A stretch of 64,000 bases of DNA from Natronorubrum bangense. GTDB lineage: Archaea > Halobacteriota > Halobacteria > Halobacteriales > Natrialbaceae. Both the position numbers and the translations under genes were made by a program. The notes beneath the pieces are model-generated. The model was not told the origin of the DNA and ran no database searches. It saw only the letters and a list, made by a program, of their open reading frames with translations. This document shows, in pieces, positions 30,482 to 37,296 of the stretch. Numbering within the stretch: position 1 is the first letter of the stretch; each line of letters starts with the position of its first letter. The stretch covers positions 1,426,001-1,490,000 of the forward strand of contig NZ_CP031305.1 in NCBI RefSeq assembly GCF_004799645.1, given 5' to 3'.

Positions 30482-31351
30482 ATGCACTCGATCGAAGAGA
30501 AACGCGTCTACGGCGATCGCGAGGGAGCCACCGAGGCCTACGTCTCGAGTTCGATCGGTGTCGTCCGTGTCCGCGTCGCCGACGACACTGTCGGCGAGTT
30601 CGGCCTCTGTGACCGCTGTACCGCACACGATGTTGCAGCGGCCGACGGGATCGTTGCGGTCGCAACCGACGAGGACGTCCGGCTCTTGGTGCCCCCAGCC
30701 GAGGGCGACGAGTCGGCAGCTGACGATCCGGCTCTCATCGAAACCGGCTTCGGTCCCGCAGTCGCCGTCGGCCTCGACGACGCGGGATTGCTCGCGGCCA
30801 GTCCCGACGGCGAGATTGCCCGACTGGCAGGAGACGTTCCGGCCGACGACGGCGACTGGGAGTCGATCGAGGCCGCCGGTATCGACACGGTTTGCGCCAT
30901 CGATGGCGACCTCATCGGCACCGATGACGGTGTCTACCGCGTTCACGACGGCACGCTCGACCACGCCGGACTCACGGCCGTCCGGGACGTCTCTGCGGCC
31001 GGCGTCCCGCTTGCCGCCACCGGCGACGGCCTTTATAAACTCGGCAATGGCTGGATGCAGGTCCTCGAGGGATCGTTCGAGGTCGTCGCCGCGGACCCCC
31101 GAAGCGATCGGGGGCGACTCGCACGGGCCCACGCCGTCTCCGGGGAGACGGTCTATGCCTACGGCGAGGACGACTGGCAGGAGTACGACCGTTCGGGGTC
31201 ATCCATCGTCGGCGTCGGGTACGGCGAGACGTGGTACGCCGTCACCGAACGGGGAACCTTCCTCTCGGCGACGCCGACGGACGCCAACGGTCCGTGGCGC
31301 TCGCGAACACTTGGCGTCGGAGACGTGACAGGACTCGCCGTCCTGCGATAA
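30482..31351 (+). CDS. HVO_0234-like beta-propeller protein
   Basis: A 289-residue soluble protein starting MHSIEEKRVYGDREGATEAY. It is built of short repeated strand units, with VRVRVADDTVGEFGL, IVAVATDEDVRLLV, GLLAASPDGEIARL and YAYGEDDWQEYDRSG giving a propeller-like rhythm. I recall this as the haloarchaeal HVO_0234 family, of unknown function, commonly beside glmM and prs. The glmM-HVO_0234-lipoprotein-prs neighbourhood here agrees. No signal peptide is present, so it should be cytoplasmic. Confidence 0.75.
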   Translation: MHSIEEKRVYGDREGATEAYVSSSIGVVRVRVADDTVGEFGLCDRCTAHDVAAADGIVAVATDEDVRLLVPPAEGDESAADDPALIETGFGPAVAVGLDDAGLLAASPDGEIARLAGDVPADDGDWESIEAAGIDTVCAIDGDLIGTDDGVYRVHDGTLDHAGLTAVRDVSAAGVPLAATGDGLYKLGNGWMQVLEGSFEVVAADPRSDRGRLARAHAVSGETVYAYGEDDWQEYDRSGSSIVGVGYGETWYAVTERGTFLSATPTDANGPWRSRTLGVGDVTGLAVLR

Positions 31352-31970: not shown

Positions 31971-32032
31971 TCGCTCGAGCCACCACCACGACACTGCGAG
32001 TCACTCACGGTGTACGCGAGAACGAAAACGGG

Positions 32033-32038
32033 TTTTAT
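32033..32038 (+). promoter_or_regulatory. TATA-like box before prs
   Basis: TTTTAT lies about 26 bases before the ATG at 32061 and supports that codon against the in-frame start at 32010. Confidence 0.5.
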
Positions 32039-32060
32039 GCTTCGTCCAGTCCACTCGAGT

Positions 32061-32915
32061 ATGACCACGATCGTCAGCGGTGCTGACTCGCAGACGCTTG
32101 CCGCTGCGCTTGCCCGTGAACTCGACGTCTCGCTCGCCACTGCCGAGTACAATCGGTTTCCCGACGGCGAACTGCTCGCTGCGGCGCCCGACTTCGACGA
32201 CGACCGCGCGATCGTCGTCGCCTCGACTGTCTCGAGTGACGCCCACATCGAACTGCTCCAGTTGCAGGATGCCGTCCGCGAAGCCGGCGCCGACGAGGTC
32301 GTTACCGTCCTGCCGTACATGGGCTACGGCCGCCAGGACAAGGCGTTCGAGGCGGGCCACCCGATCTCTGCCCGTGCGGTCGCCCGTGCCATCTCGACTG
32401 GCGCGGATCGCGTGCTGACCGTCACGCCTCACGAAGAAGCAGTGTGTGAGTTCTTCGAGCCGACGGCGACCGCTATCGACGCTGCCGGCCGACTCGCCGA
32501 ACCGCTTCCCGACGACCTCGAGGATCCGGTCTTCCTCTCGCCCGACGCGGGCGCGATCGAACTCGCCGAGACGGTTCGTGACGCCTACGGTGACGGCGAG
32601 ACGGACTACTTCGAGAAGAAACGCCACTCCGGCACCGACGTCGAGATCACCCCGAGCGATGTCGACGTGGCCGGCCGCGACGTCGTCGTTGCGGACGACA
32701 TCATCGCGACTGGGTCGACGATGAGCGAGTCCGTCTCCGTCCTGCAAGACCGTGGCGTTGGCCGCGTGTTCCTCACCTGCGTCCACCCGCTGCTCGCCGA
32801 TAACGCAGTGACGAAACTCTCTCGAGCCGGTGTCGAGGCGATCTACGGCACGGATACGATTGAACGACCGATGAGCGACGTCTCGGTCGCGCCGTCGCTC
32901 GCCGAACACCTCTAA
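32061..32915 (+). CDS. prs: Ribose-phosphate pyrophosphokinase
   Basis: A 284-residue PRPP synthetase, which transfers pyrophosphate from ATP to ribose 5-phosphate and feeds purine, pyrimidine, His and Trp synthesis. Seen are EYNRFPDGELLAA, the flexible loop MGYGRQDKAFEAGHPIS, DVEITPSDVDVAGRDVVVAD running into the PRPP-binding DDIIATGSTMSES, and FLTCVHPLLADNAVTKL. The short length is the archaeal form (about 285), which tends to lack the allosteric ADP site of bacterial enzymes. It stands alone with its own promoter. Confidence 0.92.
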   Translation: MTTIVSGADSQTLAAALARELDVSLATAEYNRFPDGELLAAAPDFDDDRAIVVASTVSSDAHIELLQLQDAVREAGADEVVTVLPYMGYGRQDKAFEAGHPISARAVARAISTGADRVLTVTPHEEAVCEFFEPTATAIDAAGRLAEPLPDDLEDPVFLSPDAGAIELAETVRDAYGDGETDYFEKKRHSGTDVEITPSDVDVAGRDVVVADDIIATGSTMSESVSVLQDRGVGRVFLTCVHPLLADNAVTKLSRAGVEAIYGTDTIERPMSDVSVAPSLAEHL

Positions 32916-33074
32916 GCGAGCGCGACGTGGCGGCGCTCGAGTGGGTGTTACTGTTAAGTCGCTTCACGTGACAGTCTCACGCAGAGACGATTCGGCCCGG
33001 GCCGATGGCTGCCTGTTGGTTGACTCGAGCAACTGGCCGTCACCCGTGGGGGCAACCGAAGGGAGTGAGACCTG

Positions 33075-33617
33075 ATGCACGGAATCATCCACAAAACACT
33101 CGAGGAGTACGTCATCGCAAAGACCGATGAGGAGACATGGGCCTCGATCGTCGACCGAGCTGGCATCGAGCCGACGTTGTATCTCCCTGTCTCGTCGTAC
33201 GACGATGCCGAAATCGAAGCCATCCTCGAGACGCTCTCGTCGCTGGCTGTCCAGGACCGCCGGCAGATCGAACGTGATTTCGGTCGAACGCTCGCTCCCG
33301 AACTCCTGTCGACGTTCGCCGCGCACGTTCGCGATGATGGGGACCTGTTCGCCGTCCTCGAGCGTCTCGAGTCGATCGTTGAGAGCGTCGACACGACGAC
33401 GAACGCGAACGCGGTGCCAGCCGTTTCGGGAACCCGCGAGTCGCCAGACTGCGTTCGTGTGACCTACCGAACCCACCGGGAGCCGTGTTACTGCGGGGTG
33501 GCACAGGGCGTTCTCGAGGGGATGGCCGATGCACTCGAGACGGACGCGACAGTCACCGAAACGTCGTGTACTGCTGACGGTGACCAGACGTGTGTGTTTC
33601 GGGTGGAACGCGTCTAA
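33075..33617 (+). CDS. H-NOX/V4R-like sensor protein lacking the proximal His
   Basis: A 180-residue protein starting MHGIIHKTLEEYVIAKTDEE, as heme-NO-binding (HNOB, H-NOX) domains do. A Y-x-T-x-R motif (YRTHR, residues 131-135) falls where the heme-propionate YxSxR motif sits in H-NOX proteins. But around residue 102, where the proximal His is expected, the sequence is LERLESIVESV with no His. The C-terminal part has C138, C140, C165 and C173 in the pattern E-x-x-C-x-x-x-G-D-x-x-C-x-F, a V4R-domain mark. So it probably binds a ligand other than heme, or a metal by cysteines. No kinase, cyclase or transducer is adjacent. Confidence 0.7.
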   Translation: MHGIIHKTLEEYVIAKTDEETWASIVDRAGIEPTLYLPVSSYDDAEIEAILETLSSLAVQDRRQIERDFGRTLAPELLSTFAAHVRDDGDLFAVLERLESIVESVDTTTNANAVPAVSGTRESPDCVRVTYRTHREPCYCGVAQGVLEGMADALETDATVTETSCTADGDQTCVFRVERV

Positions 33618-35926: not shown

Positions 35927-36898
35927 TCAGAGCAGTCCAGCCAGCACCGTGTTGAACAGCACGCCGACGGCGACCCCGGTGGTCACGACGGTGCCCGCAT
36001 AGACGGCAAGCAGTCGCCGTTCGAAGAGCTTGTTCAACAGGATCAGGTTCGGAATGCTGATTCCAGCACCACCGATGACGAAGGCGATCACCGTCCCGAT
36101 CGGAATCCCCTGTTCGGCCAGCGAGTGAGCGATCGGCAACATGCCGCTAATGCTCACGTAGATCGGTGCGCCAGCCAGTGCGGCCATCGGCGTCGCGAGT
36201 GGGTTCGACGGGCCGGCGATTCGCTGGAGAAACGCCTCCGGGACTGCCCCGTGGATGAGCGCCCCTATCGTAATCCCGATGATGATGTAGGGAAGCGTAT
36301 CCCAGAAAAACGACAGCGCTCCGCGACCGGCCGCGGAAAACCGCTCTCGGTGTGATCGGGATGGTGAACCGCTACACGCACAGCTCGTGCCACCAGTTGT
36401 CGCTCCCCCGTCGGTCGTGATCTCGCGTCCGCCAGCAGTGATGCGAACGTCTTTGACGTAGTTCTCGAGGTTGAGCGTGCCGATGACGATGCCACCGACG
36501 ATCGCTGCGGACAGCGCCATCACGACGTAGGCGATCGTCACACTGGCCCCAAAGAGTCCGAACAGCAGGATGACAGCGATCCAGTTGACGATCGGCGAGG
36601 CAAGCAGAAACGAGAACGCGAGGCCGATCGGCGCACCGGCACCGAGCAAGCCCGCGAGAATGGGGACCGTCGAACACGAACAGAACGGCGTCACTGCGCC
36701 GAGTCCAGCAGCGAGGACGTTTCCGCTCCCGTGATCTCGAGACCGAAGCATCGCCTCGACTCGCTCCGGCGGCAGATACTCCTGTGCGAGACCGACGAGA
36801 AACGACGCCCCGACGAACAGCGGCGCGAGGACGAGCGCCAGATGGACGAAGTACTCGGCGGACTCGATCAGCGCCGTCTCGTAGCCGGCAGGAATCAC
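35927..36898 (-). CDS. YraQ/DUF318 (ArsP-like) permease
   Basis: A 323-residue membrane permease with about eight to ten helices and start GTG 36898. The family mark TPFCSCSTVPILAGLL (C73, C75) sits in helix 2, and its repeat SISGMLPIAHSLAEQGIPIG lies in the second half. A Cys-containing cytoplasmic loop (TSCACSGSPS, about residue 173) separates the halves. Relatives export organoarsenicals or metals, so efflux of a thiol-reactive metal or metalloid is likely. Its GTG overlaps the ArsR stop codon by four bases (GTGA), so the two are translationally coupled. Confidence 0.85.
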   Translation of the reverse strand: MIPAGYETALIESAEYFVHLALVLAPLFVGASFLVGLAQEYLPPERVEAMLRSRDHGSGNVLAAGLGAVTPFCSCSTVPILAGLLGAGAPIGLAFSFLLASPIVNWIAVILLFGLFGASVTIAYVVMALSAAIVGGIVIGTLNLENYVKDVRITAGGREITTDGGATTGGTSCACSGSPSRSHRERFSAAGRGALSFFWDTLPYIIIGITIGALIHGAVPEAFLQRIAGPSNPLATPMAALAGAPIYVSISGMLPIAHSLAEQGIPIGTVIAFVIGGAGISIPNLILLNKLFERRLLAVYAGTVVTTGVAVGVLFNTVLAGLL

Positions 36899-37296
36899 CG
36901 TTCGTACTCACCCAGTGCGGCGGCGAGGTCGAGCAGTTGGAGACTCGCCGTATCTGCGATTCGATAGTAGGTCCATTTCCCCTCTTTGCGGGTGCGTACG
37001 ATACCAGCCTCGCGGAGCTGTGAGAGGTGCGTGCCGACGGTCGACTGTGGTGCATCGAGGATCGTCTCGAGTTCGCAGGCACACAGCTCTCCATCCCGAA
37101 GTGCCTCGATGATCCGGAGCCGTTTTTCGTTTGCAAGCGCCTTGAAAACGCGCAGTTCGTCGTCGATCAGTTCGTCGCCTGCCATGCGGTTTGCAGGAAA
37201 TGCCCCTTCACAGCAAGCACCACCGCTCATCCGGCTGATCGTCCCGCTTGCCGATTCGCTCGGCCCGTCCGCGTCGAGCCCGTGCTGATCGGTCAT
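36895..37296 (-). CDS. ArsR-family metalloregulator
   Basis: A 133-residue winged-helix repressor. Helix-turn-helix region: STVGTHLSQLREAGIV followed by the wing RTRKEGKWTYYRI. The metal site is visible as ELCACEL (C72, C74), matching the ELCVCDL As/Sb/Cd sensing motif of ArsR/CadC proteins, plus an N-terminal pair C28-C29 (GGACCEGAFP) that could complete it. It most likely represses this operon until metal binds. It sits six bases after the Cys-rich microprotein gene and overlaps the permease gene by four bases. Confidence 0.88.
   Translation of the reverse strand: MTDQHGLDADGPSESASGTISRMSGGACCEGAFPANRMAGDELIDDELRVFKALANEKRLRIIEALRDGELCACELETILDAPQSTVGTHLSQLREAGIVRTRKEGKWTYYRIADTASLQLLDLAAALGEYER

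Follow-up and report, generated by a model that had tools for sequence, protein, structure and literature searches.

Haloarchaea encode a clade-wide lineage of H-NOX proteins without the proximal heme histidine, and one member of this lineage (here, clade A) lies in the 64-kb stretch of the Natronorubrum bangense genome that was analyzed (the window). The gene occupies positions 33075..33617 on the forward strand and encodes a 180-amino-acid protein with the H-NOX fold. The open reading frame starts with ATG, 9 bp downstream of a Shine-Dalgarno-like GGGAG (33061..33065, forward strand) that is the same in the four closest sequences. The dN/dS of the gene is ∼0.1 to 0.2 against close relatives within the genus and 0.23 to 0.37 against two more distant Natronorubrum; therefore, 33075-33617 is a functional gene, and it evolves under purifying selection. 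No description of haloarchaeal H-NOX, including the lineage without the histidine, was found in the open-access papers searched.

Profile, fold, and phylogeny all identify the protein as a full-length H-NOX. The HNOB profile of Pfam (PF07700) matches residues 2 to 161 (E value of 2.3e-22; score of 80.1 bits, cut-off of 25.5), and phmmer matches the protein over its full length to the S. oneidensis H-NOX (2kii; E value of 4e-9). An AlphaFold2 model built from 26 clade A sequences reached a pLDDT of 83 and a pTM of 0.83. The top Foldseek match of this model was S. oneidensis H-NOX (E value of 3.8e-12, TM of 0.86 to 0.87), and alignment of the model to structure 4u99 of that protein with VIA-align yielded a Z of 21.2 and 2.3 Å over 177 residues, whereas TRAPP Bet3 and VirS, next in the fold comparison, reached a Z of ∼11. 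The original prediction had identified an H-NOX-like N terminus and a Y-x-T-x-R motif at residues 131 to 135, and both are borne out, the latter as Y131-R-T-H-R135.

The site of the canonical proximal heme ligand is codon 102 (33378..33380, forward strand), which reads GTT and encodes valine; its alignment column holds both His103 of S. oneidensis H-NOX and His102 of the canonical haloarchaeal paralog. No histidine is present among residues 92 to 111, as had been noticed from the sequence of this one protein, and the observation extends to the entire clade: the ligand column contains histidine in none of the 58 clade A members compared with all 11 canonical haloarchaeal paralogs (clade B). A shifted alignment that hides a histidine was ruled out, given that the column lacks it in 58/58 members, and helix F holds no other conserved histidine among these sequences. 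Residue 102 is instead variable, with tyrosine in 24 members, valine in 10, alanine in 10, threonine in 9, and arginine in 2, and also leucine, isoleucine, and phenylalanine. In the phylogenetic tree, clade A forms a single group (support 99/92), and the presence or absence of the histidine maps to a single change; the proximal histidine was thus lost once, early in haloarchaeal clade A. HNOB proteins of other Halobacteriota, where the sequence spans the ligand site, retain the histidine as judged by eye, and a published comparison of 598 H-NOX homologs reports this residue to be absolutely conserved (PMC7108781).

The loss of the ligand left most of the surrounding pocket in place. With 16 changes, position 102 is the 133rd most conserved of 180, whereas Y131, R135, P115, and G70 rank between 8th and 45th, and the glycines and pocket hydrophobic residues stay conserved despite the free drift at position 102. 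The proximal-pocket proline (codon 115, 33417..33419, forward strand) is kept in 54/58 members. The Y-R-T-H-R stretch (codons 131 to 135, 33465..33479, forward strand) aligns with the heme-propionate motif YxSxR of H-NOX with serine replaced by threonine; Y131 is present in 56 of the 58 members, serine or threonine at 133 in all 58, and R135 in 55. Mean entropy is 0.83 at the pocket-frame positions, a list drawn in part from the pocket of Tt H-NOX, versus 1.65 at random positions. Because any fold conserves its core positions, this is weak evidence of a function of the pocket. Nine residues are invariant in clade A across deep haloarchaeal splits. The first helix carries a hallmark of the clade, His6 (codon 6, 33090-33092; 54/58 members, leucine in clade B), which together with the invariant His2 forms H2-x3-H6, a possible metal-binding pair.

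The C-terminal region contains the cysteine pattern that had been pointed out at the outset, namely, C138-x-C140 and E162-x2-C165-x3-GD-x2-C173-x-F, but its elements differ in conservation. Three of the cysteines correspond to the published zinc ligands Cys139, Cys164, and Cys172 of S. oneidensis H-NOX (PMC7108781): codon 140 (33492..33494, 50/58 members), codon 165 (33567..33569, 49/58), and codon 173 (33591..33593, 54/58), all on the forward strand. All three are found together in 49/58 members. At least one is absent in the remaining 9/58, the site having been lost approximately four times inside clade A; for example, the protein of Natrarchaeobius chitinivorans (L157) has none. By contrast, the first cysteine of the CxC, codon 138 (33486..33488, forward strand), is a lineage-specific addition within a 2-residue insertion and is shared by only 4/58 members, all close relatives. 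A four-cysteine cluster was thus ruled out: conservation extends to three cysteines, whereas C138 and C126 were added locally. The histidine or glutamine that serves as the fourth ligand in zinc-bearing H-NOX (groups 2/3 of PMC7108781) is not kept, with Glu162 in the column of S. oneidensis His161 and mostly glutamate, lysine, or arginine across the clade; zinc binding by this protein is therefore a prediction.

The same pattern underlay the proposal that the protein merges H-NOX with V4R and is intermediate between the two folds, which we consider very improbable. The V4R profile (PF02830) does match the C-terminal part of the protein, but at 28 bits in one search and 29.6 bits in another, both under the cut-off of 31, and distant resemblance to MetOD1, MsvR, and TRAPPC3 was detected. 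However, the canonical, histidine-bearing paralog scores 41.8 bits against V4R, over the cut-off; therefore, the V4R-like pattern is a general trait of H-NOX. That HNOB, V4R, and MetOD1 are related and that V4R and MetOD1 have cysteines in common is already published (PMC5847659), the predicted structure is an H-NOX fold over its full length, and in the tree, the clade falls within the haloarchaeal H-NOX. A merger was thereby ruled out, and what survives of the original prediction is an H-NOX-like protein without the proximal histidine that is plausibly heme-free.

At the window locus, the gene is located between prs, encoding ribose-phosphate pyrophosphokinase (32010..32915, forward strand; PF13793/PF00156), and a gene for a CARDB-domain protein, with no kinase or cyclase gene adjacent. 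The prediction that no output partner sits nearby was accurate with respect to kinases and chemotaxis proteins but overlooked the strong conservation of prs as a neighbor. In 52/57 clade A loci, prs is directly upstream on the same strand, including deep branches with other neighbors, and in 15 loci it is kept in the absence of the usual downstream gene; the gaps between prs and the gene are mostly 21 to 231 bp. Conversely, each of the 26 genomes tested carries prs, with or without an intact copy of the gene behind it, and in several genomes without an intact copy, the next gene follows prs directly, a clean absence. Six aligned intergenic regions from Natrialbaceae share a footprint of 10 invariant bases, ACTGTTAAGT (32950..32959, forward strand). 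An exact TTAAGT occurs in 22/52 loci that carry the gene versus 0/19 prs-downstream regions of genomes without an intact copy, and only twice within the 64-kb window. From its conservation, ACTGTTAAGT is probably a promoter or operator element of the gene, and this conservation, along with the distribution of TTAAGT, implies that the gene probably has its own promoter. The idea of a prs operon was rejected despite the frequent adjacency, given that the gene has an upstream element of its own and that prs is present regardless of the gene; the link to prs may be positional only. A scan for sigma-70 promoters and terminators gave no hits, in line with the archaeal origin of the sequence. In one genome, an open reading frame for a PAS-histidine kinase adjoins the clade A gene (L037:5085-6236) and is a possible partner in that lineage. 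Elsewhere in the window, 30482-31351 is a gene for an HVO_0234-like beta-propeller, whose position upstream of prs is shared by many haloarchaea, and an ArsP-like permease is paired with an ArsR-type regulator at 35927-37296 on the minus strand.

The host genome, of 4.38 Mb and with N. thiooxidans (92%) among its nearest named relatives, contains two HNOB genes, the clade A copy in the window and a canonical clade B copy (L001; G000:C1:1902212-1902745) that keeps His102 and encodes a protein ∼32% identical to the window protein. An MCP-signal gene adjoins B-type loci, and in all four loci tested against Pfam, the host genome included, it was identified as MCPsignal; for instance, in L001 and L067, a canonical H-NOX with His102 is followed by an MCP transducer gene. 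From this arrangement, the canonical H-NOX and the MCP likely form a gas-sensing chemotaxis pair. With the canonical H-NOX retained in the same genome, a protein for the heme role is already present. No HNOBA partner domain was found in the host genome. Clade A itself is found across Natrialbaceae and in some other Halobacteria, with a patchy distribution: 62/149 relatives were matched in the H-NOX search, canonical paralogs included. One genome (G021; L134/L180) harbors a broken copy, split over several frames and still located beside prs.

The reading that we prefer, at slightly less than even confidence, is that the window protein is a stand-alone pseudo-H-NOX that uses no Fe-His heme for NO sensing and instead serves as a cysteine zinc-thiolate redox switch. 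In such a switch, no functional Fe-His heme would be present, and the zinc-thiolate cluster of Cys140, Cys165, and Cys173, located where the last helix begins, would respond to oxidation via disulfide formation and zinc rearrangement. Oxidation of the cluster would then shift the distal subdomain relative to the proximal one, as reported for C. crescentus H-NOX and for the heme-free form of V. cholerae H-NOX, and the shift would alter the interaction with a partner protein whose gene lies elsewhere in the genome. In V. cholerae H-NOX, the same cysteines are zinc ligands and drive the oxidative activation of the heme-free protein (PMC7108781), and C. crescentus H-NOX is activated by oxidation, not by NO (PMC12329717). 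The repeated loss of cysteines (9/58 members) excludes redox sensing as a function common to all clade A members. The main rival, which we regard as rather unlikely, accommodates those exceptions: the cysteines would be purely structural, and the emptied pocket would bind another hydrophobic carboxylate or tetrapyrrole, in the manner of the cinaciguat-type dicarboxylates that replace heme. The retention of YxSxR when heme propionates would no longer need it hints at a pocket that is still occupied; YxS/TxR also survives in the members without cysteines, the pocket frame has low entropy, and a complex of H-NOX with a heme-site drug (4iae, BAY 60-2770) is among the best fold matches of the model. 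However, the entropy argument is subject to the reservations given above on core positions and on the origin of the pocket list, and the genomic context points to no ligand.

Retention of YxSxR would also fit a heme sensor of an unusual kind, in which heme is held by Tyr102 or without any proximal protein ligand. Tyrosine is the commonest residue at position 102 (24/58), and the H103G mutant of S. oneidensis H-NOX was solved with heme-CO (2kil), so loss of the histidine, while it speaks against heme binding, does not by itself bar it. Nevertheless, we consider this reading improbable: the window protein has Val102 and other members have alanine, threonine, arginine, or leucine, so there is no conserved ligand at the site, and helix F supplies no conserved histidine in its stead. 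Marginally less probable still is a drifting, dispensable paralog that persists by inertia at a locus that rearranges slowly. The patchy distribution, the clean absences between prs and the next gene, the broken copy in G021, and the repeated cysteine loss would all fit such drift, but the within-genus dN/dS of 0.1 to 0.2, the nine residues invariant over deep haloarchaeal splits, and the conserved upstream element of the gene's own argue against it.

Returning to the zinc-thiolate switch and extending it to the clade, we suggest, somewhat more tentatively than for the single protein, that a free-standing prokaryotic clade abandoned heme and gave rise to dedicated zinc/thiol redox or alternative-ligand sensors that are vertically inherited, such that the redox function reported as secondary in heme-free V. 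cholerae H-NOX would now be the sole one. Heme-independent redox signaling as a real biological function was left open by the work on the latter protein (PMC7108781); a natural clade that lacks the heme ligand and mostly possesses the zinc thiolates is a clean test system for it.

The H-NOX of S. oneidensis, V. cholerae, and C. crescentus, which are zinc-bearing NO sensors (PMC7108781, PMC12329717), have in common with the window protein the whole fold, YxSxR, the proline, the three zinc-ligand cysteines, and the stand-alone architecture. In contrast to these proteins, the window protein (∼20% identical to S. oneidensis H-NOX) has no proximal histidine, its fourth ligand position is not histidine or glutamine, and no histidine kinase or cyclase is encoded next to it. 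The canonical haloarchaeal H-NOX (L001) belongs to the same family and shares the three cysteines, P115, and YxSxR, but keeps His102 and is followed by an MCP transducer gene, neither of which applies to the window gene. V4R and MetOD1 (PF02830, PF18546) resemble the window protein in a C-terminal alpha/beta element whose cysteines are spaced C-x7-C and are distant kin according to published work, but they lack the N-terminal distal subdomain of H-NOX, and the match to them is weaker than that given by an ordinary H-NOX. The known precedent for an H-NOX without the histidine is the pseudo-H-NOX of the sGC alpha subunit (PMC8196705), which likewise lacks the heme-ligating histidine and has been demonstrated to be heme-free, a state that is only predicted here. 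The sGC alpha protein is, however, a subunit of an animal multidomain enzyme with the pocket blocked by an N-terminal extension and with YxSxR lost in the moth alpha subunit, whereas the window protein is free-standing and archaeal, keeps YxS/TxR, and has no N-terminal extension. The likeness is thus a functional analogy, to the extent that the prediction of a heme-free state holds, rather than membership in the same subfamily; if our reading is correct, clade A would be the free-standing prokaryotic counterpart of the animal sGC-alpha pseudo-H-NOX.
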